From assembly GCF_000967915.1 (NCBI RefSeq), contig NC_022549.1:1104366-1168365 (forward strand): DNA of 64,000 nucleotides, in the 5' to 3' direction. This DNA comes from Paracholeplasma brassicae (GTDB taxonomy: Bacteria; Bacillota_I; Bacilli_A; Acholeplasmatales; UBA5453). The number at the start of each line of letters is the position of its first letter. Positions within the stretch are counted from its first letter, which is position 1. This document shows positions 7,671 through 52,503 of this stretch, piece by piece. The translations under genes were made by a program, and so were the position numbers. The notes below the pieces were generated by a model. The model was given only the letters and a program-made list of their open reading frames with translations, ran no database searches and was not told where the DNA came from.

Positions 7671-8237
7671 CTAAATCGATTCGAAAACCAATTTTCTGTT
7701 CTTCCAAAAATAATCAATACCTGATAAAAGTGTCAACAGAACAGCCACATAAAATAAGATGTCACCAACGATTGCATTTAATCCAAAATCATTGAATAAT
7801 AGCACCACTAGTGCAATGACCGTTGCAATCATCTTGAGTTTTCCATAGACTGATGCAGCGATGACTTTCCCACCTTCAACCGCAAGTAGTCGAATGGTGG
7901 TAACGATAAACTCTCTAGCAATAACGATGACCACAAGTGCCCATCCAACACGCCCAATTGAAATCAAGTATAGCATTGCGGTTGTTACTAGTAGTTTATC
8001 TGCAATTGGATCTAGAAACTTTCCAAATGTAGTCACTTGATTGTTTTTTCTTGCTAAATAACCATCTAAAAAATCCGTGAACGAGGCAATAACAAAGATA
8101 ACAGCAAATAACAACTCGCCTAAATTAAGATTAAAAACGACGTTATTTACTTTAGTAATCGGCTCCAACATAACCATCAGAATCATGATTGGAATTAAAA
8201 TCATTCGAGTCAGTGTAATTTTGTTCGGTAAATTCAT
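7671..8237 (-). CDS. pgsA: CDP-diacylglycerol-glycerol-3-phosphate 3-phosphatidyltransferase
   Basis: PgsA makes phosphatidylglycerophosphate, the committed step to phosphatidylglycerol, at the membrane. The 188-aa protein has several membrane helices and the CDP-alcohol phosphotransferase signature DGYLARKNNQVTTFGKFLDP (D-G-x2-A-R-x8-G-x3-D-x3-D, with the last Asp in PIADK). The start follows GAGGG by eight nt. It is immediately upstream of recA and may be co-transcribed with it. Confidence 0.95.
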   Translation of the reverse strand: MNLPNKITLTRMILIPIMILMVMLEPITKVNNVVFNLNLGELLFAVIFVIASFTDFLDGYLARKNNQVTTFGKFLDPIADKLLVTTAMLYLISIGRVGWALVVIVIAREFIVTTIRLLAVEGGKVIAASVYGKLKMIATVIALVVLLFNDFGLNAIVGDILFYVAVLLTLLSGIDYFWKNRKLVFESI

Positions 8238-8287
8238 TTTATAAATCCCTCTTTCAAATTTATTTTATCATATTTGGCCATTAATAG

Positions 8288-8316
8288 TTGCTTTTTAAAA
8301 TGTGTTTTGGTATAAT
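8288..8316 (+). promoter_or_regulatory. sigma-A promoter of rpsT
   Basis: TTGCTT, 17-nt spacer, TATAAT. The start codon is 30 nt downstream, so the leader is short. Confidence 0.75.
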
Positions 8317-8345
8317 TTGAGGTGCTTATCACGGGAGGTGACATT

Positions 8346-8606
8346 ATGGCTAACATTAAACAACAAATCAAACGCATCAAGACAAACGAAAAACGTCATT
8401 TAATCAATGCATCTTACAAGTCTTCAACAAAAACAGCTGTTAAAGCAGTTCATCAAGCAGTCGCTTTAAAAGACAAGGAAAAAGCATTAGTTGCTGTTGC
8501 TTACGCAAACAAGAAATTGGATAAGGGACAAGCAAAAGGTATCTATCACAAGAACTTTGTTGCCAACCATAAATCTCAACTTGCAAAACTAGTTAACACA
8601 CTATAA
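8346..8606 (+). CDS. rpsT: 30S ribosomal protein S20
   Basis: A basic, helical 86-aa protein with the typical S20 start MANIKQQIKRIKTNEKR and the late GxIHKN-like motif GIYHKNFVANHKSQLAK. S20 binds 16S rRNA during 30S assembly. The start is ATG 8346, chosen because GGGAGGTG lies five nt upstream and because S20 proteins begin MAN. An upstream in-frame start at 8322 would place the ribosome binding site inside the gene. rpsT is divergent from pgsA and convergent with the exonuclease gene, as at the rpsT-holA boundary in Bacillus. Confidence 0.97.
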   Translation: MANIKQQIKRIKTNEKRHLINASYKSSTKTAVKAVHQAVALKDKEKALVAVAYANKKLDKGQAKGIYHKNFVANHKSQLAKLVNTL

Positions 8607-8632
8607 TCACATCGACGATGTGGTTTTTTTTT
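8607..8632 (+). terminator. Rho-independent terminator after rpsT
   Basis: Stem ACATC/GATGT (extended by C-G and flanking pairs) followed by T9. It overlaps the stop of the convergent gene by two bases. Confidence 0.75.
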
Positions 8633-9299
8633 ATCTTCTTTCGAGTTCTAACCGATTGCCATATTGTGGCACATAAGTGACGTGAGAAGCTTTTAAACCC
8701 GAGACACCATATTTCGGATTAAATCCAATTACGTTGATGTATTTATCCATTGAGTCACGTTCTTTAATCATTTCAACTAACACCAGAAATGTCGCTTTAA
8801 TATCATCGAGTGCTCGGTGCGTATTTGCTATTTCAATGTGGTATTGTTTAACCGCGTTATCCAATTTATGAGGAAATGGGTGTCTATCTTTGTAGATTGC
8901 CATCACATCAAGCAAGTCATGTTTGATTTCATAATGTGGGTTATTTAACATACGGCGATACATCGATGTTAGAAAGCCATAATCAAATTGAATGTTGTAG
9001 GCAACCATCAAACAGTTGTCTTTCACCATATCGTTTAATAGATGAAAGGCTTCTTCTTCAAGAATGCCTTTTTCCTTTAACATATCGTCTGTAATGTTTG
9101 TTATTTCAACGATTTTATCTGGTAAAGGTCTATCTTGTTTGATTAAAACGGATAATTCTTTCACAATCTTATATTGCTTACTAGGCTCTTGTCGTTGCAG
9201 TAAAATCGCACCAATTTCGATGATACGATCATTAACATGTGAGAGACCTGTGGTTTCAAAATCGAATAATAAGATGTGTTCATAACGTTCTTTAAGCAT
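8631..9299 (-). CDS. DEDDh 3'-5' exonuclease (DnaQ/epsilon family)
   Basis: A 222-aa 3'-5' exonuclease of the DnaQ fold. The three Exo motifs are visible: DFETTG near residue 14 (Asp, Glu), AYNIQFDYGFL (Asp), and NTHRALDDIKAT with the His and Asp of the DEDDh class. It could act as a proofreading or repair exonuclease or in RNA trimming; the subfamily cannot be fixed by eye. The start lies nine nt after a GGAGG that sits across the end of holA, so translation is probably linked to holA. Confidence 0.88.
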   Translation of the reverse strand: MLKERYEHILLFDFETTGLSHVNDRIIEIGAILLQRQEPSKQYKIVKELSVLIKQDRPLPDKIVEITNITDDMLKEKGILEEEAFHLLNDMVKDNCLMVAYNIQFDYGFLTSMYRRMLNNPHYEIKHDLLDVMAIYKDRHPFPHKLDNAVKQYHIEIANTHRALDDIKATFLVLVEMIKERDSMDKYINVIGFNPKYGVSGLKASHVTYVPQYGNRLELERR

Positions 9300-9303
9300 G
9301 TTC

Positions 9304-10254
9304 TTAAACCTCCAATAAAAAGAGCTCTAAACCGATTTTTTTATCGATTTGCCCTGATTTGATTTGATAATCTAGTTCCGTTAATCGTTTAAAATATTTT
9401 TCTAAGTCTCTAGACTTCAAAGATGAAGCATTTTTTACCATATAATAAGCCCTGCCTGGTTTCACATTAAAGAACTCTGCTATTTTTTCCTGTGTATAAC
9501 CTTTTTCTAGAAGCTTTTTCGTATGAATGGTTTCTTTGAGTTTTGAACTTGTTTGACTGATAATTCGAATGGGGTCTTCATTCTTCTCTAACAAGTCGCC
9601 ATACACTTCCATGATACGTCGCTTATTTTTTGCCAAAATCGCATTGGTTAACTCGAATATGTTTTCTTCTAAGTTTCTCGAAACCAGTCGTCTAATGTCA
9701 TCTAAAGCTATTTGTTTTTGATCCATTTTATACAATTTGAGTTTTTCAACTTCATTATTTAACAATACGATATCGAAATTTGTTCGTTCGACAAGTTCTT
9801 TAGTCGCTAAATCATCAATTTGATAATCAAATGTTTTAAAAACAGACTTCACATATGGCTCGAAATCTTTTTTATCCATGTCTTTAATTAGTTCGATTCG
9901 GCAATATTTTTTTGCCTCTTTGGAAATCAATATCGACTGATCAAGTGCCTTCGAGAGATAAAAGATCACAAAGGTATCCTCATTTGGATTTTTAAAATAT
10001 CGAATCAAGTCTGAGATACCTTCTTCTTTTGAACTTTCATAGAAGAACCATGGATTTTTAACCTTGATGATTTTTTTATCAGAAAAAAACGAAACCGTCG
10101 TCATTTCTTGTAGTAAATGGTCAATCGTTTGTTCTTCTAAATCATACGTTAATATGTTAAACGGATCCACATTAAGTGTCTTTACAAGACTTTCCACCGC
10201 ATTTTCAACCAAAAACGTGTCGATACCTTGATATATATATAGGTAATCCGGCAT
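9304..10254 (-). CDS. holA: DNA polymerase III subunit delta
   Basis: HolA is the delta subunit of the clamp loader, opening the sliding clamp. The 316-aa protein begins MPDYLYIYQGIDTFLVENAV, matching the family start (x-YLxxGxExFL). A degenerate AAA+ domain is followed by the C-terminal collar segment (GYTQEKIAEFFNVKPGRAYY, then DLEKYFKRLTELDYQIKSGQ). Its place between comEC and rpsT matches Bacillus. The ribosome binding site is AGGG, about six nt from the ATG. Confidence 0.94.
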   Translation of the reverse strand: MPDYLYIYQGIDTFLVENAVESLVKTLNVDPFNILTYDLEEQTIDHLLQEMTTVSFFSDKKIIKVKNPWFFYESSKEEGISDLIRYFKNPNEDTFVIFYLSKALDQSILISKEAKKYCRIELIKDMDKKDFEPYVKSVFKTFDYQIDDLATKELVERTNFDIVLLNNEVEKLKLYKMDQKQIALDDIRRLVSRNLEENIFELTNAILAKNKRRIMEVYGDLLEKNEDPIRIISQTSSKLKETIHTKKLLEKGYTQEKIAEFFNVKPGRAYYMVKNASSLKSRDLEKYFKRLTELDYQIKSGQIDKKIGLELFLLEV

Positions 10255-32782: not shown

Positions 32783-32809
32783 AACACTGATAAAGAAATG
32801 AGGTATACA

Positions 32810-34345
32810 ATGAGTAAAAAAAGATTTTCAGGATTAATCATTTTGGATGGCCAAGGTTTAGCAGAAGCTAGTGACTCAAATTCTGTCACATTAGCAAATA
32901 CACCGGTATTGGACAAATTACTTGCAAACTATCCAAATAACACATTAGAAGCGTCTGGTGAGGCTGTAGGTCTGCCAGATGGTCAAATGGGAAACAGTGA
33001 AGTTGGTCACTTGAATTTAGGCGCAGGTCGTGTGGTTTATCAATCACTTACTCGCATTAACGTCGCAATCAAAGATGGTTCATTTTATCATAACCAAGCA
33101 TTTTTAGACGCTGTTAATCATGTCAAAAAGCACAATTCAAAACTTCATATTTTCGGATTAGCTGGTCATGGTGGGGTCCACTCAAATAGTGAACACATTA
33201 AAGCTCTTCTGCGCTTTGCTCAAGATCAAGGCGTTGAAAACAAAACCTTCTATCATGCCTTCTTAGATGGTCGAGATACCCCTCAAACCAGTGGCTTAGG
33301 GTATGTAAAAGAACTGATCGAAGCTGGTGCTAAAATTTCAACCGTTTCTGGTCGCTATTACGCAATGGATAGAGACAACAACTGGGATCGACTTCAAAAA
33401 GCTTACGACGCAATGACCGTTGGTGATGCACCGTTATATGACTGCCCAATTTGTGGCATTGAAGATTCTTATCAAAAAGGCATTACTGATGAGTTCATGT
33501 TACCGTTTGTGGTTAACAAGAATGGCCTTGTTGAAACCAACGATGCGATAATTTTTGCAAACTTTAGACCGGATAGAGCAATTCGAATTGCAACTGCTTT
33601 TTCAAACCCTGAAGCAGTCAAGGACTATTATACTGAAGGTAAAGCTCACTTTGATAGTTCAAAAGGACCAAAGAATATTTTCTTTGTTTCAATGATGCAC
33701 TATGCCTATACGGTTAAAGGCCCAATTGCGTTTGAGTTAAATGACTTACAAAACATTTATGGCGAAGTGATTGCCAATGCTGGATTAAAACAAATTCGTG
33801 CCGCAGAAACTGAAAAATACGCACACGTCACCTTCTTCTTCGATGGTGGGGTTGAACGTCAACTTGAAGGTTCTAATCGAATTTTAGTTGAGTCACCAAA
33901 AGTACCAACTTATGACTTAAAACCTGAGATGAGTGCTTATGAACTTACTGAAAAAGTTGTTGAAGCAATCAAAACAGATGAATATGACACCATGATTCTA
34001 AATTTTGCAAACCCAGACATGGTTGGTCATACCGGTTCGATTGAAGCAACCACAAAAGCTGTTGAAGCCGTCGATGAATGTTTAGGTAAAGTTCTAGACG
34101 CCATTAATAGCGTGGGTGGTGTTGCTATTGTCCTTGCGGACCATGGGAATGCCGAAAAAATGAGAGACGAATTTGGAAATCCTCATACCGCTCACACAAC
34201 GAACTTAGTCCCTGTAATTATCACAGACAAAAATTATCAATTACGTTCTGGTGGCGCACTTTGTGACGTTGCACCAACGTTACTTGAACTATTAGAAACA
34301 GAAAAACCAAAAGAAATGACCGGCAAGTCATTAATTATAAAATAG
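32810..34345 (+). CDS. gpmI: 2,3-bisphosphoglycerate-independent phosphoglycerate mutase
   Basis: GpmI interconverts 3- and 2-phosphoglycerate using manganese and a phosphoserine intermediate. The 511-aa protein has the catalytic serine region MGNSEVGHLNLGAG, the substrate motifs HAFLDGRDTPQTSG and GRYYAMDRDNNWDR, and the metal ligands NFANPDMVGHTG and VLADHGNAEKM. The start is ATG 32810, with GAGG seven nt upstream; an ATG four codons earlier lacks one. A terminator follows. The next glycolytic step, enolase, is encoded nearby on the other strand. Confidence 0.97.
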   Translation: MSKKRFSGLIILDGQGLAEASDSNSVTLANTPVLDKLLANYPNNTLEASGEAVGLPDGQMGNSEVGHLNLGAGRVVYQSLTRINVAIKDGSFYHNQAFLDAVNHVKKHNSKLHIFGLAGHGGVHSNSEHIKALLRFAQDQGVENKTFYHAFLDGRDTPQTSGLGYVKELIEAGAKISTVSGRYYAMDRDNNWDRLQKAYDAMTVGDAPLYDCPICGIEDSYQKGITDEFMLPFVVNKNGLVETNDAIIFANFRPDRAIRIATAFSNPEAVKDYYTEGKAHFDSSKGPKNIFFVSMMHYAYTVKGPIAFELNDLQNIYGEVIANAGLKQIRAAETEKYAHVTFFFDGGVERQLEGSNRILVESPKVPTYDLKPEMSAYELTEKVVEAIKTDEYDTMILNFANPDMVGHTGSIEATTKAVEAVDECLGKVLDAINSVGGVAIVLADHGNAEKMRDEFGNPHTAHTTNLVPVIITDKNYQLRSGGALCDVAPTLLELLETEKPKEMTGKSLIIK

Positions 34346-34446: not shown

Positions 34447-35124
34447 ATGAGTATAATTAAAGCTTTAAATTTGTTTAAAACCTATACACTTCAAGATGGC
34501 ATAGACACGGTTCTAAAAGATATTAACCTAACCATTAACGAAGGTGAATACGTTGCAATCATCGGCCCAACAGGTTCAGGAAAATCATCCCTAATTCGAA
34601 TATTATCGGGTCTAGAACAAAAAACAAGTGGTAACCTTATGTTATTTGAAAAACCAATTGAAAACTACTCAACAGATGCCTTAACCGAATTGAGAATTGC
34701 CGACATCGGTTTTGTCTTTCAGTCATACCAGTTAATCAATGAACTAACGGTTTATGAAAACATTGAGTTGGCAGCTACATTAAACGGTTTTGTAGACAAG
34801 GATAAAATATATCAACTAATGAGTGAACTTCACATTAAGTCTTATGCTTCGTTTTATCCAAATATGCTCTCAGGTGGGACTAAACAGCGTGTCGCTATCG
34901 CAAGAGCACTAATTAACAATCCACGACTACTATTTCTTGATGAACCCACAGGAAACCTTGATGATAAAACCACTAATCAACTTCTTTTGTTATTGAAAGA
35001 ACAAAATGAACTGCACCAAAGAACACTCATTATTATCACCCACGATAAGGACGTTGCAACACAAGCAAAAAGAGTCATTGAATTGAAAAACGGAGCGATT
35101 ATTCGCGATGAAACAAACGGCTAG
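34447..35124 (+). CDS. ABC transporter ATP-binding protein (MacB/LolD type)
   Basis: A 225-aa ABC ATPase of the FtsX-partner class. Walker A is GPTGSGKSS, the Q-loop is FVFQSYQL, the signature is LSGGTKQR, Walker B is LLFLDEPTGNLDD, and the switch His is in IITHD. It overlaps the permease gene by 17 nt, so the two form one exporter or mechanotransmission unit. The signature has Thr in place of the usual Gln at the fifth position. Confidence 0.94.
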   Translation: MSIIKALNLFKTYTLQDGIDTVLKDINLTINEGEYVAIIGPTGSGKSSLIRILSGLEQKTSGNLMLFEKPIENYSTDALTELRIADIGFVFQSYQLINELTVYENIELAATLNGFVDKDKIYQLMSELHIKSYASFYPNMLSGGTKQRVAIARALINNPRLLFLDEPTGNLDDKTTNQLLLLLKEQNELHQRTLIIITHDKDVATQAKRVIELKNGAIIRDETNG

Positions 35125-37531
35125 TTTGTATTTATATATATTAAAACTTTCTTTTAGAAATATTAAAAAAAGTCTTTTTCGGTTTTTACTGTTTGTATGC
35201 GCCCTGTCCTTTTTAGTTTTAACCATCTACCTCAGTCTATCAACTAATGAATTCTTAAAAATGTACTATAATAATGAAACTTCTTCTACTTACCACGATT
35301 ACCAATTGAAAATTAACCCAACATTAGAAAGCAATTCTCGTTTTTTTTCAATTACACCTTTATTAAATTCATCCGTAAAAGATGAGTTGAAACGTTATCT
35401 TCAGTTATTTGAAATTGAAACAACCTTTACGCTAGATTCCGACATACATTCGGTAACGTTATTTTCAACCTCAATCGCGTCATTTACAGACTATATCAAC
35501 CCAAACAATACATTTGTTTTACTACCTAATGACGCCATTATAACTTCAAGTTTTGCAAAAAAACATGATATTGATCTATTTGATACAGTAGATATTCAAC
35601 TTGGTGATAAAAAAATCAAGTACCAGGTCGCTTACATTATCAATGACTACGGTTTGTTCAAAGATGAACGTGTATTTGTCGATCAGAAAAGTATTCTAAA
35701 AACGCTCATTACGACTTTAGATCCTAGTTTATCCAATCTACCTGAGGTAATATACGAACGTTTTACAAATCAACTCTATTTATCTTTTTATGATGGCGTT
35801 GACATCGAACAAGTTAAAACCACATTAGAGACATTACCTGGGTATCAAAACTTGTCTATTTCACACCCTTTTAATCAACAAAGAATTAATCAAAATATTC
35901 AAATCACCGCTACTTTCTTTACCATTATTTTATCAATAATTAGTTTAACACTGCTCGTATTTTTTTATACTAACCTTCAAATCATTTCACTAAACCGACA
36001 CACTCAGTATCAAAATTTACGAACGATAGGTTTTAAAAACAAGCAGATATACTTACTGTTTTTAACTGAAATATACATTTCTTTGATTATTGGTTTTGTC
36101 ATAGGTTTTATTCTTTCTTATTTCGTTATTGATTATGGTTTTTATTTTCTAGGTTCGACTGCTTCATATAAGATTAACTTATCAAAAGCATTCGTCGTCT
36201 TTGGGATCATGAACTTACTCGTATTTATTTCTTTAGGCGTTCTTTTATCTGATAAAAAGAGAGAGACACAAACCTCAAAAACAGCAATCAAGATCTTTTT
36301 TGTTTGTTTGATTGTAGCAATTCTTCTTTATACAAAGAATGTCGTACTTATCATTTTGATTACGGTAGCTTTCTTGTTTATGTTTTGTACTTTGAAACTT
36401 CCACACCTATTTTTTGCAACGCGCAAATTTAAAGGTAATATACTAACAGCTAATCTGTTCAAAATGACCTTAATGAAAAAGACATTCAAAGCTTATATTG
36501 TTAGTTTGTTCATTGTATTTTTATCTGTTTTCTTACTTTTTTATGCCAACCGACATATGAGCGAACGAATTAAACATTACGGGTCGTTTTACCAGTTTGA
36601 TTTCTATATTACTGGAATTACACAAAATTTCACATCAATAGAAGATGAGTTATCCAAACGCACAGATTTACAATTTTCACCAATCGTTTTTGATACAAAC
36701 GTCACAATAAATGACCATGTCGTTATGGAGTTTGTTTCAATCAATCCAGATGATATTTCTATCTACTACGACCTAAATATTAGTAAAGATGCGCTTACGT
36801 TATTTAAAGAGAACCAAGAGCCTACCATCATTTTACCATATGCTTTTAAAGCGCTTTATGGTTTAAACGTCTTAGATGATGTGGTTATCACAACTACCTT
36901 AGGCAATCAAACAAGTTATATCATTAGTGGTTTTTTTGACAAAGAACTTTCAAACCTCGTTATCTCTAACCTCAATACAGAAAACAAAAATAGGAATAGT
37001 TTTATGATTAAATCACTTGATGATAAACAAGTGCTAAAAACATCACTACTTTCTACTTTTCAAAAACGTTTGATTGTTGTCTACGACTATAACAGCTCAT
37101 TAAGTCGTCAATTAATAGAGATGAAACAGATTCAAAGCTATCTTAATCTCATTATATGTTTTATTCTAGTATCGTTGATGCTCTCTTTGGCTAACCAACA
37201 AACGTTGTTGTATCAGTCCTTAAAAGACAACTACGTAAAACTATCCGTTTTAGGACTAGCTAAAGACAAACGAAGAAAGTACCTAATAAAAGAAAGTTGG
37301 CTCATTTTTATATTGACAATGGTTTTTACTTATGGCTTCTATCTGGTATTTTTGACTCTTATATCCGACCTCTATCTAAGCTTCTTCCTTTACGAGATAA
37401 GCTATGATTATCATTTAGCTTCACTTTTTGCCTTTATATTTATTACCGTTTTTTACTTTATGATTCGCTATTTTTATCAAAAAACTGCCATTCGAGAATC
37501 ATTTTCTTCACATTTTCAAAATTTTGATTAA
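35108..37531 (+). CDS. FtsX-like ABC transporter permease
   Basis: An 807-aa membrane protein of the FtsX/MacB permease superfamily. A first membrane helix near residues 20-42 is followed by a roughly 220-residue extracytoplasmic domain, three helices near residues 260-385, two more at about 390-440, a second helix/extracytoplasmic domain repeat, and three helices at the end. This duplicated layout is typical of antimicrobial-peptide, lipoprotein or peptide exporters. The substrate is unknown. It starts inside the end of the ATPase gene. The next gene encodes a very large lipoprotein. Confidence 0.88.
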   Translation: MKQTASLYLYILKLSFRNIKKSLFRFLLFVCALSFLVLTIYLSLSTNEFLKMYYNNETSSTYHDYQLKINPTLESNSRFFSITPLLNSSVKDELKRYLQLFEIETTFTLDSDIHSVTLFSTSIASFTDYINPNNTFVLLPNDAIITSSFAKKHDIDLFDTVDIQLGDKKIKYQVAYIINDYGLFKDERVFVDQKSILKTLITTLDPSLSNLPEVIYERFTNQLYLSFYDGVDIEQVKTTLETLPGYQNLSISHPFNQQRINQNIQITATFFTIILSIISLTLLVFFYTNLQIISLNRHTQYQNLRTIGFKNKQIYLLFLTEIYISLIIGFVIGFILSYFVIDYGFYFLGSTASYKINLSKAFVVFGIMNLLVFISLGVLLSDKKRETQTSKTAIKIFFVCLIVAILLYTKNVVLIILITVAFLFMFCTLKLPHLFFATRKFKGNILTANLFKMTLMKKTFKAYIVSLFIVFLSVFLLFYANRHMSERIKHYGSFYQFDFYITGITQNFTSIEDELSKRTDLQFSPIVFDTNVTINDHVVMEFVSINPDDISIYYDLNISKDALTLFKENQEPTIILPYAFKALYGLNVLDDVVITTTLGNQTSYIISGFFDKELSNLVISNLNTENKNRNSFMIKSLDDKQVLKTSLLSTFQKRLIVVYDYNSSLSRQLIEMKQIQSYLNLIICFILVSLMLSLANQQTLLYQSLKDNYVKLSVLGLAKDKRRKYLIKESWLIFILTMVFTYGFYLVFLTLISDLYLSFFLYEISYDYHLASLFAFIFITVFYFMIRYFYQKTAIRESFSSHFQNFD

Positions 37532-37548
37532 TTTCAAAAGACATTTAC

Positions 37549-37577
37549 ATGACATATTTTAGAAAAAAATGTATAAT
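37549..37577 (+). promoter_or_regulatory. sigma-A promoter of the large lipoprotein gene
   Basis: ATGACA, 17-nt spacer, TATAAT with TG before the -10. The start codon lies 58 nt downstream. Confidence 0.7.
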
Positions 37578-37634
37578 GAAGACAAATTAGTAATAATCTA
37601 ATTGAAAATAAATCAATTTCTTAAGGAGGATACT

Positions 37635-40202
37635 ATGAAAAAATTGATGTTTGTGCTTTTATCAGTCTTTGCACTCTTTAGCCTTTTTGGTTGTGATGAA
37701 AAAACGGGCGATCCAACACTTTCAAGCCCACAAAACGTAACAATCGAAAATGGCGTTGTCACTTGGCAGTCCGTTGAAGGGGCTACTTCCTACCGAATCG
37801 TCGTTGGAACTAGTTCATTTACAACAACTAATACCACATTTGATTTAAAACAAGTAACCATTCCTGAAGGATCACATAGTGTATCGGTTATTGCTTTAAA
37901 AGATAAAACTGTTTCAAACCCATCATCGTCTGTCACATACACTGTAACGCTTGATACAGGTGATTTGTATTCGAGACTTCTGAAACTAGTAAATGAATCA
38001 TATGAACCAGAAATGAGTTTAAGTGATTTTAATAACGACCCAAGTCAATATGAAGCTTATCTACAAATGTCACTCATGATGAACTCAGTTGCGTTATCGA
38101 TGACTCAAACCGATTTATCTGAAACTGATGCTTACAACATGGTTAAACAAGTCTATGAAATGCCACAACGTATGCAACAAACCATAAGCATCCGTGATTT
38201 AATGACTGAAATCAATGACTTAAGTGCGTACGGGATGAAATCGACTGATTTTTCTAACGTAGCGGTTAATTTAATGATGACCTTCATTGGAATGAACCGC
38301 GATCGTGCTGAACATGAGTTTCAAACGCAAAGCGTGGTGTATCAACAACAAGAAGATGCATTTCTTTTAAAATACCCAGCGGTTGATTTTTCTTCGATAT
38401 CAGAAATATTCATGCCTTATCTCACACCTGAACAAGAATCCCTTTTCATGGAATTCTTCTTACCTGAGTCTAACGTTGAGGCAAAGATGGATTTTGTCTA
38501 TTATACTTACTCTGAAATCCTAAATCAAATCGAATACAACTATTTTTATGATGATGGCAACCCATACTTCAGTTTATTCTTTGATGTATTCGTCCAAATC
38601 AAAGCTAGTGACCTAACTTTATATAACTCATTAAAAGGTTACGATCACCCAATGAGAGCATATTTTGACTACTTAATGGATTCACAAGATCTAGAATATA
38701 GTCATTCGTACCTCACACAGTTAGAAACAAACTTAGCCATGATGACATCAATCATCGATGCTATAAGTGAAAATGAAGTCATGTTTAAAGAAGTCTTTTC
38801 AGAGCTATCTAGCTATTTAAACACCCTCTACAGTTCCATTCCAGAAAGTGTGTTTGATCAACTTGCAAACATCGAAATGGCACTTGAAATTTCTGAAGCT
38901 ATTTTAATCAAGAATGAGCTGCTTGATGTGTTAATTACCACATTACCTGAGGAAGAAACATTCATTAAGTTCTTCACATTAATGGACTTAATGGCACAAT
39001 CTGTAAGTGGTGTTCAAAGTAATAATACTGAAACAGAGATCGCTGTTGTTGCAAAAATAGAACGTGCATCAATTGATCTTCTTCTTAATATCTTAGTTGA
39101 AGTTACAACCGAGGACGTGATGGCCATATTAACACTTCAAAATGATTTATATGAAACCGTCACAATTATTGATGAGTATTATCAATACGACGAACAAAAA
39201 ATAAAAGTTGATGTGTTATTCGAGCTTGTGAGTTATGTACTAAATTTCCTAGATGATTCAATGATCACACATGAAGATAAGGTCATCTACCTTGAAACCT
39301 TACTTCAATCTGAAGCTTTCTTAAGCCTTCAAAACAAATCAATTGAACTTCTACTACAATCACTAGAAAACCAAGAAATGTACCCACCAGAAATGGTGAT
39401 GTTACTAATTGAATTAAGTGAGTCAAAAGATGACATTATTGCCGCACTTGATTTATTTAAAACACTAGGTATCGCATTTATTGATGAATTTAGACTTACA
39501 AACGGCAAAGCAATTGCTGATTTAATCCTATTCTTAGATGAGCCACAAACGGTCATTGATGCCGCTTTCTATGAGGAGTTAGAAGCTGTTATCTTTGGCA
39601 TTAGGGAATATCATGAGATATTGTTCTCTCTAAATAGTGTTGAGAATATCGAAACAGTCTTACGAGCCATAAGAGTACCATTAAAATCAAGTATCCTCAA
39701 TTCGATGATGCCAACAACCGATTTTGACGTTGCCTACGAGCGATTAGTTCCATCCTTAGCTTCACTCATTTATGAAATTGCGATACTAGAAAATGACTTA
39801 TTTGCCTCATTGGATCAAGCTGAAGTTGCTTCAATGATCAATACCAATGTATGGCAAATCGAAGACCCTGAACTTCTTTACAGCGTCGTGTTCATTCTTG
39901 TGGTCGACAATGCGCTTACTTTAGCAAATAAAGAACGATTCTTAGAAATCATTACTAATTTGTTTGACACCTTACTTAAAGATGCGTTCATTTTAGAAAT
40001 GACTAATTCGACCGAACAAGCCATGGACGAGATGCGTCTTGAAATCTCAAATTATTACAGCGATTTATTCGATGAACTAGATACTTTAGCACTTCTTGAT
40101 TTTTCAAATATGACTGAAACAGAACGTCAAAGTGTTTATTCATTTCCTGCGCGTATGTTCAATTTTTCAGAAGGGATAATGCCTCCGATTGAACCAAATT
40201 AA
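37635..40202 (+). CDS. very large lipoprotein with FN3-like domain
   Basis: An 855-aa predicted lipoprotein. The signal peptide MKKLMFVLLSVFALFSLFGC ends at the lipid-modified Cys. A short linker and one fibronectin-III-like domain follow (key parts ENGVVTWQSVEGATSYRI and SHSVSVIALKDK, residues about 35-105). The remaining roughly 740 residues are long amphipathic helices rich in Leu, Glu and Met with no domain I recognise. The start is ATG 37635, five nt after AAGGAGG. It has its own promoter and terminator and follows an FtsX-type exporter. A surface or secreted-complex role is inference. Confidence 0.86.
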   Translation: MKKLMFVLLSVFALFSLFGCDEKTGDPTLSSPQNVTIENGVVTWQSVEGATSYRIVVGTSSFTTTNTTFDLKQVTIPEGSHSVSVIALKDKTVSNPSSSVTYTVTLDTGDLYSRLLKLVNESYEPEMSLSDFNNDPSQYEAYLQMSLMMNSVALSMTQTDLSETDAYNMVKQVYEMPQRMQQTISIRDLMTEINDLSAYGMKSTDFSNVAVNLMMTFIGMNRDRAEHEFQTQSVVYQQQEDAFLLKYPAVDFSSISEIFMPYLTPEQESLFMEFFLPESNVEAKMDFVYYTYSEILNQIEYNYFYDDGNPYFSLFFDVFVQIKASDLTLYNSLKGYDHPMRAYFDYLMDSQDLEYSHSYLTQLETNLAMMTSIIDAISENEVMFKEVFSELSSYLNTLYSSIPESVFDQLANIEMALEISEAILIKNELLDVLITTLPEEETFIKFFTLMDLMAQSVSGVQSNNTETEIAVVAKIERASIDLLLNILVEVTTEDVMAILTLQNDLYETVTIIDEYYQYDEQKIKVDVLFELVSYVLNFLDDSMITHEDKVIYLETLLQSEAFLSLQNKSIELLLQSLENQEMYPPEMVMLLIELSESKDDIIAALDLFKTLGIAFIDEFRLTNGKAIADLILFLDEPQTVIDAAFYEELEAVIFGIREYHEILFSLNSVENIETVLRAIRVPLKSSILNSMMPTTDFDVAYERLVPSLASLIYEIAILENDLFASLDQAEVASMINTNVWQIEDPELLYSVVFILVVDNALTLANKERFLEIITNLFDTLLKDAFILEMTNSTEQAMDEMRLEISNYYSDLFDELDTLALLDFSNMTETERQSVYSFPARMFNFSEGIMPPIEPN

Positions 40203-40224
40203 TTCTAAGTAACGATTGTTTAGA

Positions 40225-40253
40225 AGACACTGCCTTTGGTGGTGTCTTTTTTT
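40225..40253 (+). terminator. Rho-independent terminator
   Basis: Ten-pair stem AGACACTGCC/GGTGGTGTCT (two G-T pairs), TTT loop and a T7 run. Confidence 0.85.
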
Positions 40254-40293
40254 ACGAAATATAACTAGTTAAAATTTTATAATTCCTAACTTG

Positions 40294-40307
40294 TGTAAAC
40301 GCTTACT
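40294..40307. promoter_or_regulatory. cre-like operator upstream of the GH13 gene
   Basis: TGTAAACGCTTACT, one mismatch (last base) from TGWAANCGNTNWCA. Centred about 59 bp upstream of the inferred start. Confidence 0.6.
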
Positions 40308-40347
40308 TCTTTTTCACATTATATATAAAAGAACGGCGATATGGTGT

Positions 40348-40353
40348 TATAAT
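40348..40353 (+). promoter_or_regulatory. extended -10 element of the GH13 gene
   Basis: TGTTATAAT (TGn plus TATAAT) without a good -35. The start codon is 28 nt downstream. Confidence 0.6.
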
Positions 40354-40381
40354 GTAAACTGTATAGATAGGAGTTTATAAT

Positions 40382-42445
40382 ATGTCAAAAATACTAAAAC
40401 TTAGAGAGGCACTTGTGAAGAACAAACCAAGTTACCCTTTTAATTACGCAATTCCAGATTTATTCAATTTATTTGGTCATGACCCAATCACTCGTTTAAA
40501 AAGTGGTGAACACTTAGTAAATCCTTTTGATTACTTGATTGACTTAATTGACCATGTTTTATTAGATAAATACGAATCACTTCCTGTTCAATCGCTTTCT
40601 TCAATTAGAAATGAACACCACAAGTTCGGTGGTGACTGGATTATTAAATCAACGGTATATTCCATGATGATTCGTACCTCTTCTGCTTGGGATCACGATC
40701 GAAATGGTTACATTGATGAAAACAACGTTTACCACTTAAAAGAAACAGGTACGTTCTTAAAAACACTGATGCTTCTTCCAATGTTGAAGAAGATGGGTGT
40801 TGATACCATTTATCTCTTACCTATTTCAAAGTTCTCATTAAAGAATAAAAAAGGTGAGTTAGGTAGCCCATACGGGGTTTCGAACTTTTTTGAACTTGAT
40901 TCATCCCTATCGGATCCAATGATTGAAAATGACTTAAGTTTAGATGAACAGTTCCAGGTTTTAGTTGAAGCAATCCACACCTTAGGCATGCGCGTCATGA
41001 TTGACATCATCCCAAGAACCAATGCCACTGAAAATGATTTAATCATTGATCATCCAGATTGGTTTTATTGGATTAAATCTGCCGATATGCCAAAATATAA
41101 ACCACCATACGTCCATGAGCTACTCGAAAAAACGGTTTCACCTGTGAGTAAATACATGCCTACGGTTTATCAATCAAAAGAAGTTTTAGATCACATTTCA
41201 TTATTCCAATTTGATCCGAAAACTCAAGATAAAGAACTATGGAAAAAACTTGAGAAAGAATACCGTAAGAATGGCGGTTCGATTTTAGAACTGATCGATA
41301 CCTATTACGGACTTACCATCGCACCTGCTTTCTCTGATCACATCAATGATATTCAACCACCTTGGACCGATGTTACCTTCTTTAGAATGTATCTCGATCA
41401 CCCAAGAGACAATCAACAATATTTAACCGATCAAAATATTCCACCTTACATTTTATTTGATACCATCAAATCAAATTTATACCCTGGAAACAAGCCAAAC
41501 ACAGCACTTTGGGATACTTTAGCAAATATTATCCCTCACTACCAAAAAACTTATGGCATCGATGGTGCTCGTATTGACATGGGTCATGCGCTTCCAAAAG
41601 AGCTCGTTGAACAAATTATCAGTACTGCTAGAAAAATCGATCCTGACTTCGCGTTCATCGCTGAAGAACTAAACCCTGACAACGCAAAAACAGCACGTCC
41701 TATGGGTTATAACATGATCATAGGCAACGGTTTTTCAATGGAACATAAGGTGTTTGAAGGTAATCTTCACCGATTCATGTATGAATCCGTCTTGCTTGAT
41801 TGCCCTGTCTTTGCCTGTGGTGAAACACATGACACACCAAGACTAGCTGCTAGAGATGGCGGGCAAAACTTGAGTAAGTTCTTAACCGTTATGAATATGT
41901 TCATGCCAAATGGTGTGCCGTTTATAAATTCCGGTCAAGAGGTTTATGAGCGTCAACCAATGAATACGGGTATTGACCCTAGACCAAACGAACTTTATAT
42001 GTTAGATTCAAGTGATCCATATTACATGAAACTTGCACTATTCGATAAATTTGCCATTCATTACTTGAATCATATGTCAAAAGATATCCTTGATAACCTA
42101 TCCAAAGTAAGTCCAATTAGACAAGCTTATTTGGATGTCATCACAAATAAGAAAAACTATCTTCCAATTAGTTTTACTGAAGGTTATAATCCAATTGGTT
42201 TTGCGTATGAAGCAAAAAATGAAATACTTTTAATCGTTGGTAATGCGAACCCATACGAAGCTCAACACACCAAAGTCGATTTAAGACCAATTCGCGAAAA
42301 ATTCAATTTGGTTGCAAAAGAGGCCAAACTACTTTATGCCATGCATGAGTTAGAACCTCGCATGTTCTTTGAATTCGATGAAAATGGTAACCCTTATTTC
42401 TTCATGGGTGCTGGTGAAGTCAAAATTCTTGTCATTCAAAAATAA
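40382..42445 (+). CDS. GH13 glucanotransferase resembling Thermotoga maltosyltransferase
   Basis: A 687-aa cytoplasmic GH13 enzyme (no signal peptide). Conserved regions are VMIDIIPRTNATEND (Asp208 region), DGARIDMGHALPK with nucleophile Asp399, FIAEELNPDN with acid/base Glu at 428-429, and ETHDTPR with His483 and Asp484. The stretches HPDWFYWIK, LYLDHP, IPHYQKTYGIDGAR and GHALPKEL match what I recall of Thermotoga maritima maltosyltransferase, which moves maltosyl units between alpha-1,4-glucans. Exact activity is inferred. TAGGAG precedes the ATG. A cre-like site lies upstream. Confidence 0.85.
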   Translation: MSKILKLREALVKNKPSYPFNYAIPDLFNLFGHDPITRLKSGEHLVNPFDYLIDLIDHVLLDKYESLPVQSLSSIRNEHHKFGGDWIIKSTVYSMMIRTSSAWDHDRNGYIDENNVYHLKETGTFLKTLMLLPMLKKMGVDTIYLLPISKFSLKNKKGELGSPYGVSNFFELDSSLSDPMIENDLSLDEQFQVLVEAIHTLGMRVMIDIIPRTNATENDLIIDHPDWFYWIKSADMPKYKPPYVHELLEKTVSPVSKYMPTVYQSKEVLDHISLFQFDPKTQDKELWKKLEKEYRKNGGSILELIDTYYGLTIAPAFSDHINDIQPPWTDVTFFRMYLDHPRDNQQYLTDQNIPPYILFDTIKSNLYPGNKPNTALWDTLANIIPHYQKTYGIDGARIDMGHALPKELVEQIISTARKIDPDFAFIAEELNPDNAKTARPMGYNMIIGNGFSMEHKVFEGNLHRFMYESVLLDCPVFACGETHDTPRLAARDGGQNLSKFLTVMNMFMPNGVPFINSGQEVYERQPMNTGIDPRPNELYMLDSSDPYYMKLALFDKFAIHYLNHMSKDILDNLSKVSPIRQAYLDVITNKKNYLPISFTEGYNPIGFAYEAKNEILLIVGNANPYEAQHTKVDLRPIREKFNLVAKEAKLLYAMHELEPRMFFEFDENGNPYFFMGAGEVKILVIQK

Positions 42446-42447
42446 TC

Positions 42448-42480
42448 AAAAAAAGAGAGTGTAAAATCTCTCTTTTTTTT
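42448..42480. terminator. bidirectional terminator between the GH13 gene and pheA
   Basis: Stem AAAAAAGAGAG/CTCTCTTTTTT with an eight-nt loop. The flanking A and T runs let it serve both convergent genes. Confidence 0.85.
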
Positions 42481-42483
42481 GAT

Positions 42484-43305
42484 TCATTCTTCTATTTTTT
42501 TGTATATCCCTAGAATTTTCAATTGAAACAAACGCTCTATTTCATTAATTTTTTGAAGTTCATTCGTGAGTTCATTGGTTAAGTATAGCTCAATAAAAAA
42601 ATGATACGTACCAATTTGATTTTTGGTTGGTCTAGACATAATCGAAATCAATGACATGTCTCTTTTGGCGAACTCTTTTAAAATCTCATAAAGTAAGCCT
42701 GGTTTATCCTTACCTACGTTGATTAATAAGGTCACTTTTAACGTTTGATATAAGTCATAAACAGGATTATCACGTCGTTTGGTTAAAATTAAGAATCTGG
42801 TGTGGTTTGAATGCGTATCTGAAATATCTTTTTTAATCATCCAATGTTTGTTGTTTACGGTTAGATGTGATGGAATAATCGAAGCGGAATCCTCGTCTTG
42901 AAGCATTTTCTCATACGATTCCGAATTACTCTCCGTGGTGATGATCTCGGTATCATTTAAGGATTCAATTAAATTAAGGCATTGATTTTTAGCCACGTAC
43001 TGAACATAAACCCGTCTTGGTTTATCTACTCTCTTAACGTAGTTGAATTGAATATCTAACGTCACTTCATTGATAATTTCAATGTCTTGTTCAATTAACA
43101 AATCCATGTGTTGGTTCACGTATCCCTCAAGCGTATTTTCAAACGGCAACACCGCATATGTGATTCCTTCATCCAAAGATTTCACTACTTCTTTGGTTGT
43201 TTTGTAGTATACTTTTTCAAAGTCACTACCTTGTTTTTTAATAAACCGACTGGCCGCTTGTTCACTGTAGGTGTCTTTTTTCCCAAGAATTGCAATTGTT
43301 GGCAT
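42484..43305 (-). CDS. pheA: Prephenate dehydratase
   Basis: A 273-aa monofunctional prephenate dehydratase, making phenylpyruvate for phenylalanine. The PDT domain shows ILGKKDTYSEQAA, VLPFENTLEGYVNQ, and the catalytic TRF in HTRFLIL. A C-terminal ACT domain follows (KPGLLYEILKEFAKRDMSL), normally the phenylalanine-binding regulatory part. The family ESRP motif in the ACT domain is changed to MSRP. No other aromatic-pathway gene is next to it. Confidence 0.9.
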   Translation of the reverse strand: MPTIAILGKKDTYSEQAASRFIKKQGSDFEKVYYKTTKEVVKSLDEGITYAVLPFENTLEGYVNQHMDLLIEQDIEIINEVTLDIQFNYVKRVDKPRRVYVQYVAKNQCLNLIESLNDTEIITTESNSESYEKMLQDEDSASIIPSHLTVNNKHWMIKKDISDTHSNHTRFLILTKRRDNPVYDLYQTLKVTLLINVGKDKPGLLYEILKEFAKRDMSLISIMSRPTKNQIGTYHFFIELYLTNELTNELQKINEIERLFQLKILGIYKKIEE

Positions 43306-50871: not shown

Positions 50872-50920
50872 CTACAAATAATTAAAGTTTGTAGAAGTGT
50901 ACAGAGAGGGGATTTTTCTT

Positions 50921-51640
50921 ATGTCAAGAACACCAAGATTCAGTAAAGAAACAAAAATCAAAGCAATCAAAGCATATCAAACAGGAATCAAGTCAATGTT
51001 AGAAATCGCATGTGAATTAGGATGTGACGTATCCAGTGTTAAACAATGGGTCAGGAACTATGAATCGATGGGAAGTATGGCATTTGAGGATAAACCAAGA
51101 AACCAAAGTTATATGAAATCATTCAAATTAGAGGTGATTAAAGCTTACCACGATGGCAAAGGATCATACGCAGAACTGGCCAAACAATATCAAATAACAT
51201 CAGACTCAATGATTAAGAGTTGGGTTTCCAAGTATAATAGACATAACGAGATCAAAGCGTATGATCCAAAGGGGTATGTTTATATGGCGAAATCAAGAAA
51301 AGTGAGTTATGAAGAAAAGTTAGATATAGTGAAATGGACGATTGAACATAACTTTGAATATAAACTCGCAGCGGAGAAGTTTGAGACAGCCTACTCACAA
51401 GTGTATAACTGGGTCAGAAAATACAACGTAGAAGGTGAAGCTGGTTTAAAGGACGAACGAGGCAAGAGAAAGCCTGTAGAGAATCTAAGTGAAATTGAGA
51501 AACTAAAACGTGAAGTTGAGCTTCTAAGACGGAAGAATGAACGTCTGGAGATGGAGGCTGAAGTCATAAAAAAATTCCAGGAGATCGAAAGGAGGGATAT
51601 TTTAGCAAGATCCGCCAAGAAGCCAAATACAAAACGATAA
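50921..51640 (+). CDS. IS3-family transposase OrfA with three helix-turn-helix units
   Basis: A 239-aa DNA-binding subunit. Three successive helix-turn-helix repeats are visible near residues 5-55 (FSKETKIKAIKAYQTG), 62-110 (FKLEVIKAYHDGKGSYAELA) and 125-175 (VSYEEKLDIVKWTIEHNFEY), then a leucine-zipper-like coiled coil (EIEKLKREVELLRRKNERLE). This is longer than common IS3 OrfA proteins with one or two units. The start ATG 50921 follows GAGGGG. Near its end a Shine-Dalgarno-like GGAGG precedes an A7 slippery run, giving the OrfAB fusion by -1 frameshift. Confidence 0.9.
   Translation: MSRTPRFSKETKIKAIKAYQTGIKSMLEIACELGCDVSSVKQWVRNYESMGSMAFEDKPRNQSYMKSFKLEVIKAYHDGKGSYAELAKQYQITSDSMIKSWVSKYNRHNEIKAYDPKGYVYMAKSRKVSYEEKLDIVKWTIEHNFEYKLAAEKFETAYSQVYNWVRKYNVEGEAGLKDERGKRKPVENLSEIEKLKREVELLRRKNERLEMEAEVIKKFQEIERRDILARSAKKPNTKR
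51553..51574 (+). promoter_or_regulatory. programmed -1 frameshift signal
   Basis: GGAGG (51553-51557), ten nt, then A7 (51568-51574) read as ATA AAA AAA in the orfA frame. The -1 frame is open from 51574 through orfB. The spacing matches that of stimulatory Shine-Dalgarno sequences in dnaX-type signals. Confidence 0.75.
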
Positions 51641-51672
51641 AAGGGCTTCATGAGGCAAAAAACTATCCTATT

Positions 51673-52503
51673 TTGGTGTTATGTGAAATCCTTTTGATTG
51701 TTCGTAGCAGCTATTATAAGTGGTTAAAACATGAAGAAACAAATGAAGAAAAGATTAATCATGAGTTATCTCAATTGATTCTTGAATATCATGATGAGTT
51801 TAAAGGTATCTTAGGCTATAGACGGATGACTTTATGGATTAATAAGCGGAATCAAACGAACTATAATGTAAAACGCATCAGACGATTGATGAAGAAATTA
51901 GGTGTATCGTCGGTTATCCGTAGAGTGCGTAAGGGGTATATTAAAGTAAGACCAGAGATCACAGCAGAGAATGTCTTAAACAGACAATTTGAGGCTAATA
52001 ATCCCAATGAGAAATGGTTAACAGACGTTACCGAGTTCAAGGTGATTGGATCGAATACTAAGTTATACTTAAGTGCCATCATCGATCTGTGTGATACCAG
52101 TATTATCAGTTACAAAATGGGTATATCGAATAATAACCAACTGGTAAATGAAACCTTCGAGAAAGCATTCCAACTTAATCCGGAAGCCAAACCGATGGTA
52201 CACAGTGACCGCGGGTATCAATATACGAATAAAGTGTTTCAAAAGAAGCTCACTTCTAGAAGCATGACAGTCAGTATGTCTAGAGTTGGTAGGTGTATTG
52301 ATAATGGACCGATGGAGAGTTTTTGGGGTACACTTAAATCAGAAATGTACTATTTAACCCAGTTTCACGACATCAATCAACTCAAAGTAGCGATTGATCA
52401 ATACATCCAGTTTTATAATAAACAAAGGTACCAAGAAAAACTAAAAGGCTTAACTCCGATGGAATTTCGGAATCAAGCCTTAAAAATTGAATCAGTTATT
52501 TAA
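51673..52503 (+). CDS. IS3-family transposase OrfB (DDE integrase)
   Basis: The catalytic part, 276 aa from the first TTG start; the frame is open back to the slip site at 51574, so the true product is probably an OrfAB fusion. A HTH_21-like segment (GILGYRRMTLWINKRNQ) precedes the rve core with DDE residues in WLTDVTEF (Asp), HSDRGYQYTN (Asp) and NGPMESFWGTLKSE (Glu). All three are intact. No independent ribosome binding site with a good start codon is visible. Confidence 0.92.
   Translation: MVLCEILLIVRSSYYKWLKHEETNEEKINHELSQLILEYHDEFKGILGYRRMTLWINKRNQTNYNVKRIRRLMKKLGVSSVIRRVRKGYIKVRPEITAENVLNRQFEANNPNEKWLTDVTEFKVIGSNTKLYLSAIIDLCDTSIISYKMGISNNNQLVNETFEKAFQLNPEAKPMVHSDRGYQYTNKVFQKKLTSRSMTVSMSRVGRCIDNGPMESFWGTLKSEMYYLTQFHDINQLKVAIDQYIQFYNKQRYQEKLKGLTPMEFRNQALKIESVI

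Follow-up and report, generated by a model that had tools for sequence, protein, structure and literature searches.

Genomic context and flanking signals of the maltosyltransferase-like gene

The stretch of DNA analyzed here (the window) comprises 64,000 nucleotides of the genome of Paracholeplasma brassicae, which is a single contig of 1,877,792 bases. Positions 40382 to 42445 of its plus strand hold a gene with an ATG start that codes for a maltosyltransferase-like GH13 protein of 687 amino acids (MTase). The N terminus of the protein, MSKILKLREALVKNKPSYPFN, was read directly and has no hydrophobic leader, in agreement with the lack of a signal peptide stated in the original prediction. A ribosome-binding site (AGGAG, 40369 to 40373, plus strand) was recognized by eye 8 nucleotides before the ATG. 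The gene lies between two hairpins, one acting as terminator of the upstream gene (40222 to 40250, plus strand; −16 kcal/mol, z −4.9; absent from the consensus scan) and the other following the MTase gene (42444 to 42484; z −5.8; also in the consensus scan). The latter is probably bidirectional and also serves a convergent gene (42484 to 43305, minus strand) for a prephenate dehydratase/ACT-like protein, named by eye. An extended −10 element, TGTTATAAT, was read by eye at 40345 to 40353 on the plus strand and is absent from the consensus scan, and a strict sigma-70 scan gave no promoter 5′ of the gene on that strand. Hairpins on both sides thus mark a separate transcription unit, while the promoter of its own stated in the original prediction is plausible from visual reading and had no match in the sigma-70 scan.

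Upstream on the same strand, about 6 kb from MTase, is gpmI (32798 to 34345), coding for a 2,3-bisphosphoglycerate-independent phosphoglycerate mutase. The region between both genes (34447 to 40202) is occupied by ABC transporter genes and a lipoprotein-like open reading frame of 866 amino acids. The window also contains an IS3-like two-ORF insertion element (50897 to 52503), of which a second copy was seen elsewhere in the genome, at 8071 to 9677 of locus L029, with ORFs of equal length and identical printed N termini.

A cre/LacI-type operator, GTGTAAACGCTTACT, is located at 40293 to 40307 on the plus strand, 89 nucleotides 5′ of the start codon and with one mismatch to the consensus used. 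To this cre-like site, already part of the original prediction, we can add its conservation. Among 95 upstream regions (the window plus 94 loci, 11 of them duplicating proteins of others), 70 matched the pattern within 300 nucleotides when no more than one mismatch was allowed; in 20 shuffles of the 95 regions, 11.5 matched on average and never more than 18. Without the 11 duplicates and one further region identical to another, 83 non-redundant regions were left, of which 61 retained such a site within 300 nucleotides and 22 had none. In 47 of the 83 it fell between −105 and −70 from the start codon, as in the window, against none for a control pattern read backwards, which matched 6/83 regions within 300 nucleotides. 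By its conserved position, the site is more than a chance occurrence. Lying upstream of the −10 element, the operator could mediate either activation or repression.

Similar sites precede other glucan genes of this genome. Six of the 13 glucan genes or operon starts scanned had a perfect or one-mismatch site, among them glgP (a perfect site at −90, found also at −86 to −89 in three of the four glgP genes of relatives examined), the gene for the secreted pullulanase (−59), and the divergent pair coding for the GH13_20 protein and the lipoprotein amylase, which have a one-mismatch site in common. No site was detected in another six of the 13 (glgB, the intracellular pulA, the malE-like gene, the small amylase, and two glucosidase-like genes). 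A related pattern matched 52 times genome-wide against 21 for the control, each palindrome being counted once per strand, so that a single site is weak evidence by itself and the strength of the argument lies in the conserved position.

Relationship to the Thermotoga maritima enzyme

When compared with solved structures using phmmer, the MTase protein matched the maltosyltransferase of T. maritima (1gju; 485.5 bits, E value of 2.6e−144) with residues 14 to 622 aligned on 12 to 601. Homology over the whole length, far beyond chance, is therefore indicated by the sequence comparison, and the other solved structures listed had local similarity of ≤56 bits. The small α-amylases 4gkl (AmyB of Thermotoga neapolitana) and 3dhu, with chains of 420 to 450 residues, match part of MTase only, mainly residues 114 to 235; one gene of this small amylase type was found in the P. 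brassicae genome. Family models were less informative. In Pfam, only the general models PF00128 (39.6 bits) and PF14701 (34.9 bits) passed their cutoffs and PF02446 (the GH77 domain) had no match up to an E value of 1, while no NCBIfam model came near its cutoff. Among loci from named species, the best match was Paracholeplasma vituli (79% identity), in a set from which records of the P. brassicae genome itself were possibly left out.

An AlphaFold model built from 38 sequences (pLDDT of 89.5, pTM of 0.91) superimposed on 1gju with a Z score of 47.0 and an rmsd of 2.3 over 635 residues (636 in the target), compared to a Z score of 27.8 for the second fold match; Foldseek gave an E value of 2.1e−56 and TM scores of 0.86/0.92. 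Both sequence and fold thus point to the T. maritima enzyme (1gju/1gjw) as the nearest characterized relative, as had been proposed from three distinctive stretches. All three are present and align with the T. maritima protein, two of them identically and the third with one difference.

The alignment pairs D399, E428, and D484 of MTase with D385, E414, and D468 of the T. maritima chain. From what we take to be general GH13 roles, these residues would be the nucleophile, the acid/base, and the stabilizer, respectively. Together with D208, D394, R397, and H402, they are invariant in the 38 aligned rows and conserved in T. maritima. The similarity extends to the DMGHALP signature and to CSR I, where the aspartate is followed by IPRT in both the MTase group and T. 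maritima; Asn-His is usual at this place in GH13. The two proteins differ in several aspects. They are 41% identical over the aligned part, a long branch separates T. maritima from the clade of the window protein in a quick tree (in which the placement of T. maritima and of the f4 sequences is unsure), and CSR IV has a histidine (His483 in MTase) in 37 of 38 rows and an alanine in one, where T. maritima has proline (ETPD). In our judgement, an ETPD-type CSR IV is not known to define T. maritima-type maltosyltransferases. Because of these three differences, transfer specificity may have shifted from that of the T. maritima enzyme. By homology, fold, and catalytic residues, we classify the window protein as a putative T. 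maritima-type maltosyltransferase.

Glucan metabolism in Paracholeplasma brassicae

The genome carries adjacent glgA and glgC genes, a glgB gene with glgP behind it, genes for two type I pullulanases, and a number of other GH13 enzymes. The glucan genes on which the original prediction depended are accordingly in place. No GH77 protein (MalQ) and no match to GH57 were found in the genome. A gene for a sugar-binding lipoprotein lies near an oligo-1,6-glucosidase-like gene; as the lipoprotein matches the MalE and GanS models only below their cutoffs, maltodextrin uptake is likely but not settled.

We looked for another enzyme that might act as a 4-α-glucanotransferase by comparing four other GH13 proteins of the genome, with the glucosidase-like L026 and L027 set aside, to solved structures. 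Their nearest structures were the amylases 3dhu/4gkl, the α-amylase 1wza, a neopullulanase, and an oligo-1,6-glucosidase, which argues against a second GH13 4-α-glucanotransferase without fully excluding it; for the 1wza-like protein, the 4-α-glucanotransferase 1lwh was the last row above the cutoff. The oligo-1,6-glucosidase-like proteins scored over the cutoff of PRK10933 (phosphotrehalase subfamily) and under that of the treC equivalog in NCBIfam; the solved structures favor oligo-1,6-glucosidase.

Distribution of MTase and GH77

We surveyed an order-level set of 120 genomes, including that of P. brassicae, and a class set of 395 genomes, which overlap and are not independent tests. In the order-level set, 15 genomes had MTase and 72 had GH77, none had both, and GlgP was present in all 15 genomes with MTase. 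The class survey counted MTase-type proteins (E value up to 1e−40), GH77, and GlgP, with GH13-type 4-α-glucanotransferases left out of the count, and found them in 83, 155, and 243 genomes, respectively. In this part of the tree, MTase is therefore not the rare GH13 type of the original prediction, even if four of the 83 proteins are degenerate. Nor is it a one-strain oddity, with all 13 sampled genomes of the family, P. brassicae included, having it.

The two enzymes are distributed in a nearly exclusive manner. Among the 243 genomes with GlgP, 77 had only MTase, 146 only GH77, four both, and 16 neither; the 152 genomes lacking GlgP were divided into two with MTase only, five with GH77 only, and 145 with neither. 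Seen from the side of MTase, GlgP accompanied it in 81 of 83 genomes and GH77 in four. Fisher’s exact test gave a P value of ca. 1e−41 for the class set, a figure to be read knowing that relatives are not independent and that counts were uncorrected for phylogeny. At the level of genera with either enzyme, 40 had only MTase, 76 only GH77, and two both, and the families f4, f15, and f22 each included genera with MTase and genera with GH77. The 16 GlgP genomes with neither comprised incomplete genomes as well as several that were at least 96% complete; thus, a partner of either type is not indispensable or was missed in them.

A GH57 enzyme acting as a hidden 4-α-glucanotransferase was also considered. 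The search covered 52 of the 83 MTase genomes, each with a completeness of 90% or more, and excluded those with degenerate proteins (four) as well as another 27; six of the 52 had weak, partial matches of 24.7 to 34.9 bits.

Two genomes of family f12 (G159 and G168) have two MTase copies each, 52 to 56% identical to the window protein, and in G168 one copy adjoins GlgP. MTase genes also appeared in metagenome-assembled genomes labeled Hahella and Holophagaceae (L059, L079, and L093), where they branch among Bacillota sequences; these genomes may be misbinned or the genes may have been transferred.

Degenerate homologues in genomes with GH77

The four genomes with both proteins (G290, G355, G361, and G433) all belong to f22, and their MTase-like proteins are 28 to 32% identical to the window protein. 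All four lack D208 and R397; in addition, the nucleophile is lost in G290 and G361 (replaced by E and S, respectively) and the acid/base in G355 and G433 (N). In three other members of f22 (G232, G249, and G320), the active site is intact and GH77 is missing. Active sites in the 79 MTase genomes without GH77 were read for these three and for rows of other alignments (38 in the one described above), and nowhere among the 395 genomes sampled did an MTase with an intact active site occur together with GH77. Three of the loci with degenerate homologues were inspected. In none did the homologue lie near the glucan genes looked for, and two of the three adjoin uracil-DNA glycosylase-like and folC-like genes (identified by eye). 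The degenerate homologues possibly represent a repurposed pseudoenzyme family (L131 to L134 and L141 to L143). The tree that includes them comes with a warning of long branches meeting.

Gene neighborhood in related genomes

Neighborhoods were compared in named loci, the best 80 of the 435 found, many of which are cut by contig ends. Within these 80, gpmI adjoins MTase in 48; both genes are codirectional in Acholeplasmataceae and divergent in Izemoplasmatales and Haloplasma. In the 12 relatives of the family, gpmI lies directly upstream of MTase. In only four of these best 80 loci, GlgP adjoins MTase and is placed directly behind it. An oligo-1,6-glucosidase-like relative was found in the MTase flanks of nine of the same 80 loci, in two of the nine with an identity of just 28 to 30%. 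In an operon of L138 (with the same coordinates as L085, from Inordinaticella fortuita), an oligo-1,6-glucosidase-like gene, MTase, GlgP, and a type I pullulanase follow each other. In L139, from a GH77 genome of f15, the order is GH77, GlgP, and type I pullulanase. Comparison of both loci places MTase in the position of GH77.

A probable maltosyltransferase in the proposed place of MalQ

According to a review (PMC11046441), most characterized glucan phosphorylases do not act on chains of fewer than five residues, and MalQ lengthens short glucans so that the phosphorylase can use them. We are rather confident that the window protein is a cytosolic T. maritima-type maltosyltransferase for α-1,4-glucans and acts as the partner of GlgP in the place of MalQ (GH77). 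It would resemble MalQ (amylomaltase, EC 2.4.1.25) in the proposed lengthening of dextrins for the phosphorylase and in its place before glgP-pulA, but it belongs to a different family and its predicted product is maltose, not glucose.

In the mechanism that we propose, GlgP would stop on chains of about four glucoses, and MTase would shift maltosyl units between short chains by double displacement, with a maltosyl-enzyme at D399 and E428 as acid/base. Two maltotetraoses would give maltose and maltohexaose, and maltotriose plus a maltosyl unit would give maltopentaose. Chains of five and six produced in this way would be just enough for GlgP to continue. The end product would be maltose, to be split by GH13 α-glucosidases, and a LacI-family (CcpA- or MalR-like) operator, similar to the one before glgP, would control expression. 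The scheme starts from what was observed (homology, fold, catalytic residues, pathway genes, the exclusion of GH77 in the sample, the equivalent operon position, and the conserved operator); donor and acceptor specificity, direction of flux, fate of maltose, and identity of the regulator are what we infer for it. Meissner and Liebl reportedly found in 1998 that the T. maritima enzyme is strictly maltosyl specific. T. maritima itself is reported to carry another 4-α-glucanotransferase, so MTase need not always be the sole enzyme of this kind.

Other activities would change this picture to different degrees. The branch found in Bacilli and Mollicutes could have become a general 4-α-glucanotransferase that transfers glucosyl to maltotriosyl units and produces glucose as MalQ does. 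Products like those of MalQ would be the simplest for an enzyme replacing it, and the long branch and the histidine of CSR IV leave room for such a shift; however, the full-length fold match and the IPRT and DMGHALP signatures are common with T. maritima, and oligo-1,6-glucosidase-like genes, before MTase in L138 and in the flanks of nine of the best 80 of 435 loci, are as expected if maltose is produced. We regard a MalQ-like activity as unlikely. An ordinary intracellular hydrolase (α-amylase or maltogenic amylase) appears very improbable. The GH13 fold, PF00128 as the best Pfam match, and the second and third places of small α-amylases among the sequence matches to solved structures are all compatible with it, yet the signatures of the catalytic region differ from those of the one amylase of this genome that was aligned, and a hydrolase would leave unexplained both the exclusion of GH77 and the linkage to glgP.

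A GlgE-like maltosyltransferase (GH13_3, EC 2.4.99.16), making glucan from maltose 1-phosphate, has hardly any probability. GlgE has the GH13 barrel and maltosyl transfer in its name, and it is the next named maltosyltransferase among the fold matches (best Z score of 26.5). Nevertheless, its sequence similarity to MTase is local and of ≤37 bits, versus 485 bits for the T. maritima enzyme, the GlgC-GlgA-GlgB route is present, and exclusion of GH77 is not predicted by such an activity. Unlike what is proposed for MTase, GlgE uses maltose 1-phosphate (PMC11046441).

Replacement of MalQ by a T. maritima-type maltosyltransferase is also a reasonably likely reading for a large part of the class, to which Mollicutes relatives and genera such as Holdemania belong. 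There, MTase would be a general non-orthologous replacement of MalQ giving a maltose-yielding breakdown of glycogen and maltodextrin, with an exclusion so strict that the homologues in GH77 genomes lost catalytic residues and sit elsewhere. Searching open-licence literature, we found no report of MTase activity outside Thermotoga, nor of MalQ replacement by a maltosyltransferase, a weak negative given that scope.

The identification and the main inference of the original prediction are supported. Regarding the glycogen or maltodextrin store that it suggested, the glucan genes are there, but MTase alone implies no store, and its occupation of the place of MalQ is more telling. The new part is the distribution, that is, the apparent replacement of MalQ by MTase. 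Maltodextrin phosphorylase usually has MalQ as its partner, and the absence of MalQ from a genome easily suggests that the pathway is incomplete. Should MTase indeed take its place, glycogen and starch metabolism would have to be reannotated in many Mollicutes-related bacteria, with maltose instead of glucose as the end product. The exclusion, the differences among genera of one family, and the degraded MTase relatives would together make a clean test case for why pairs of enzymes for one step are not retained.
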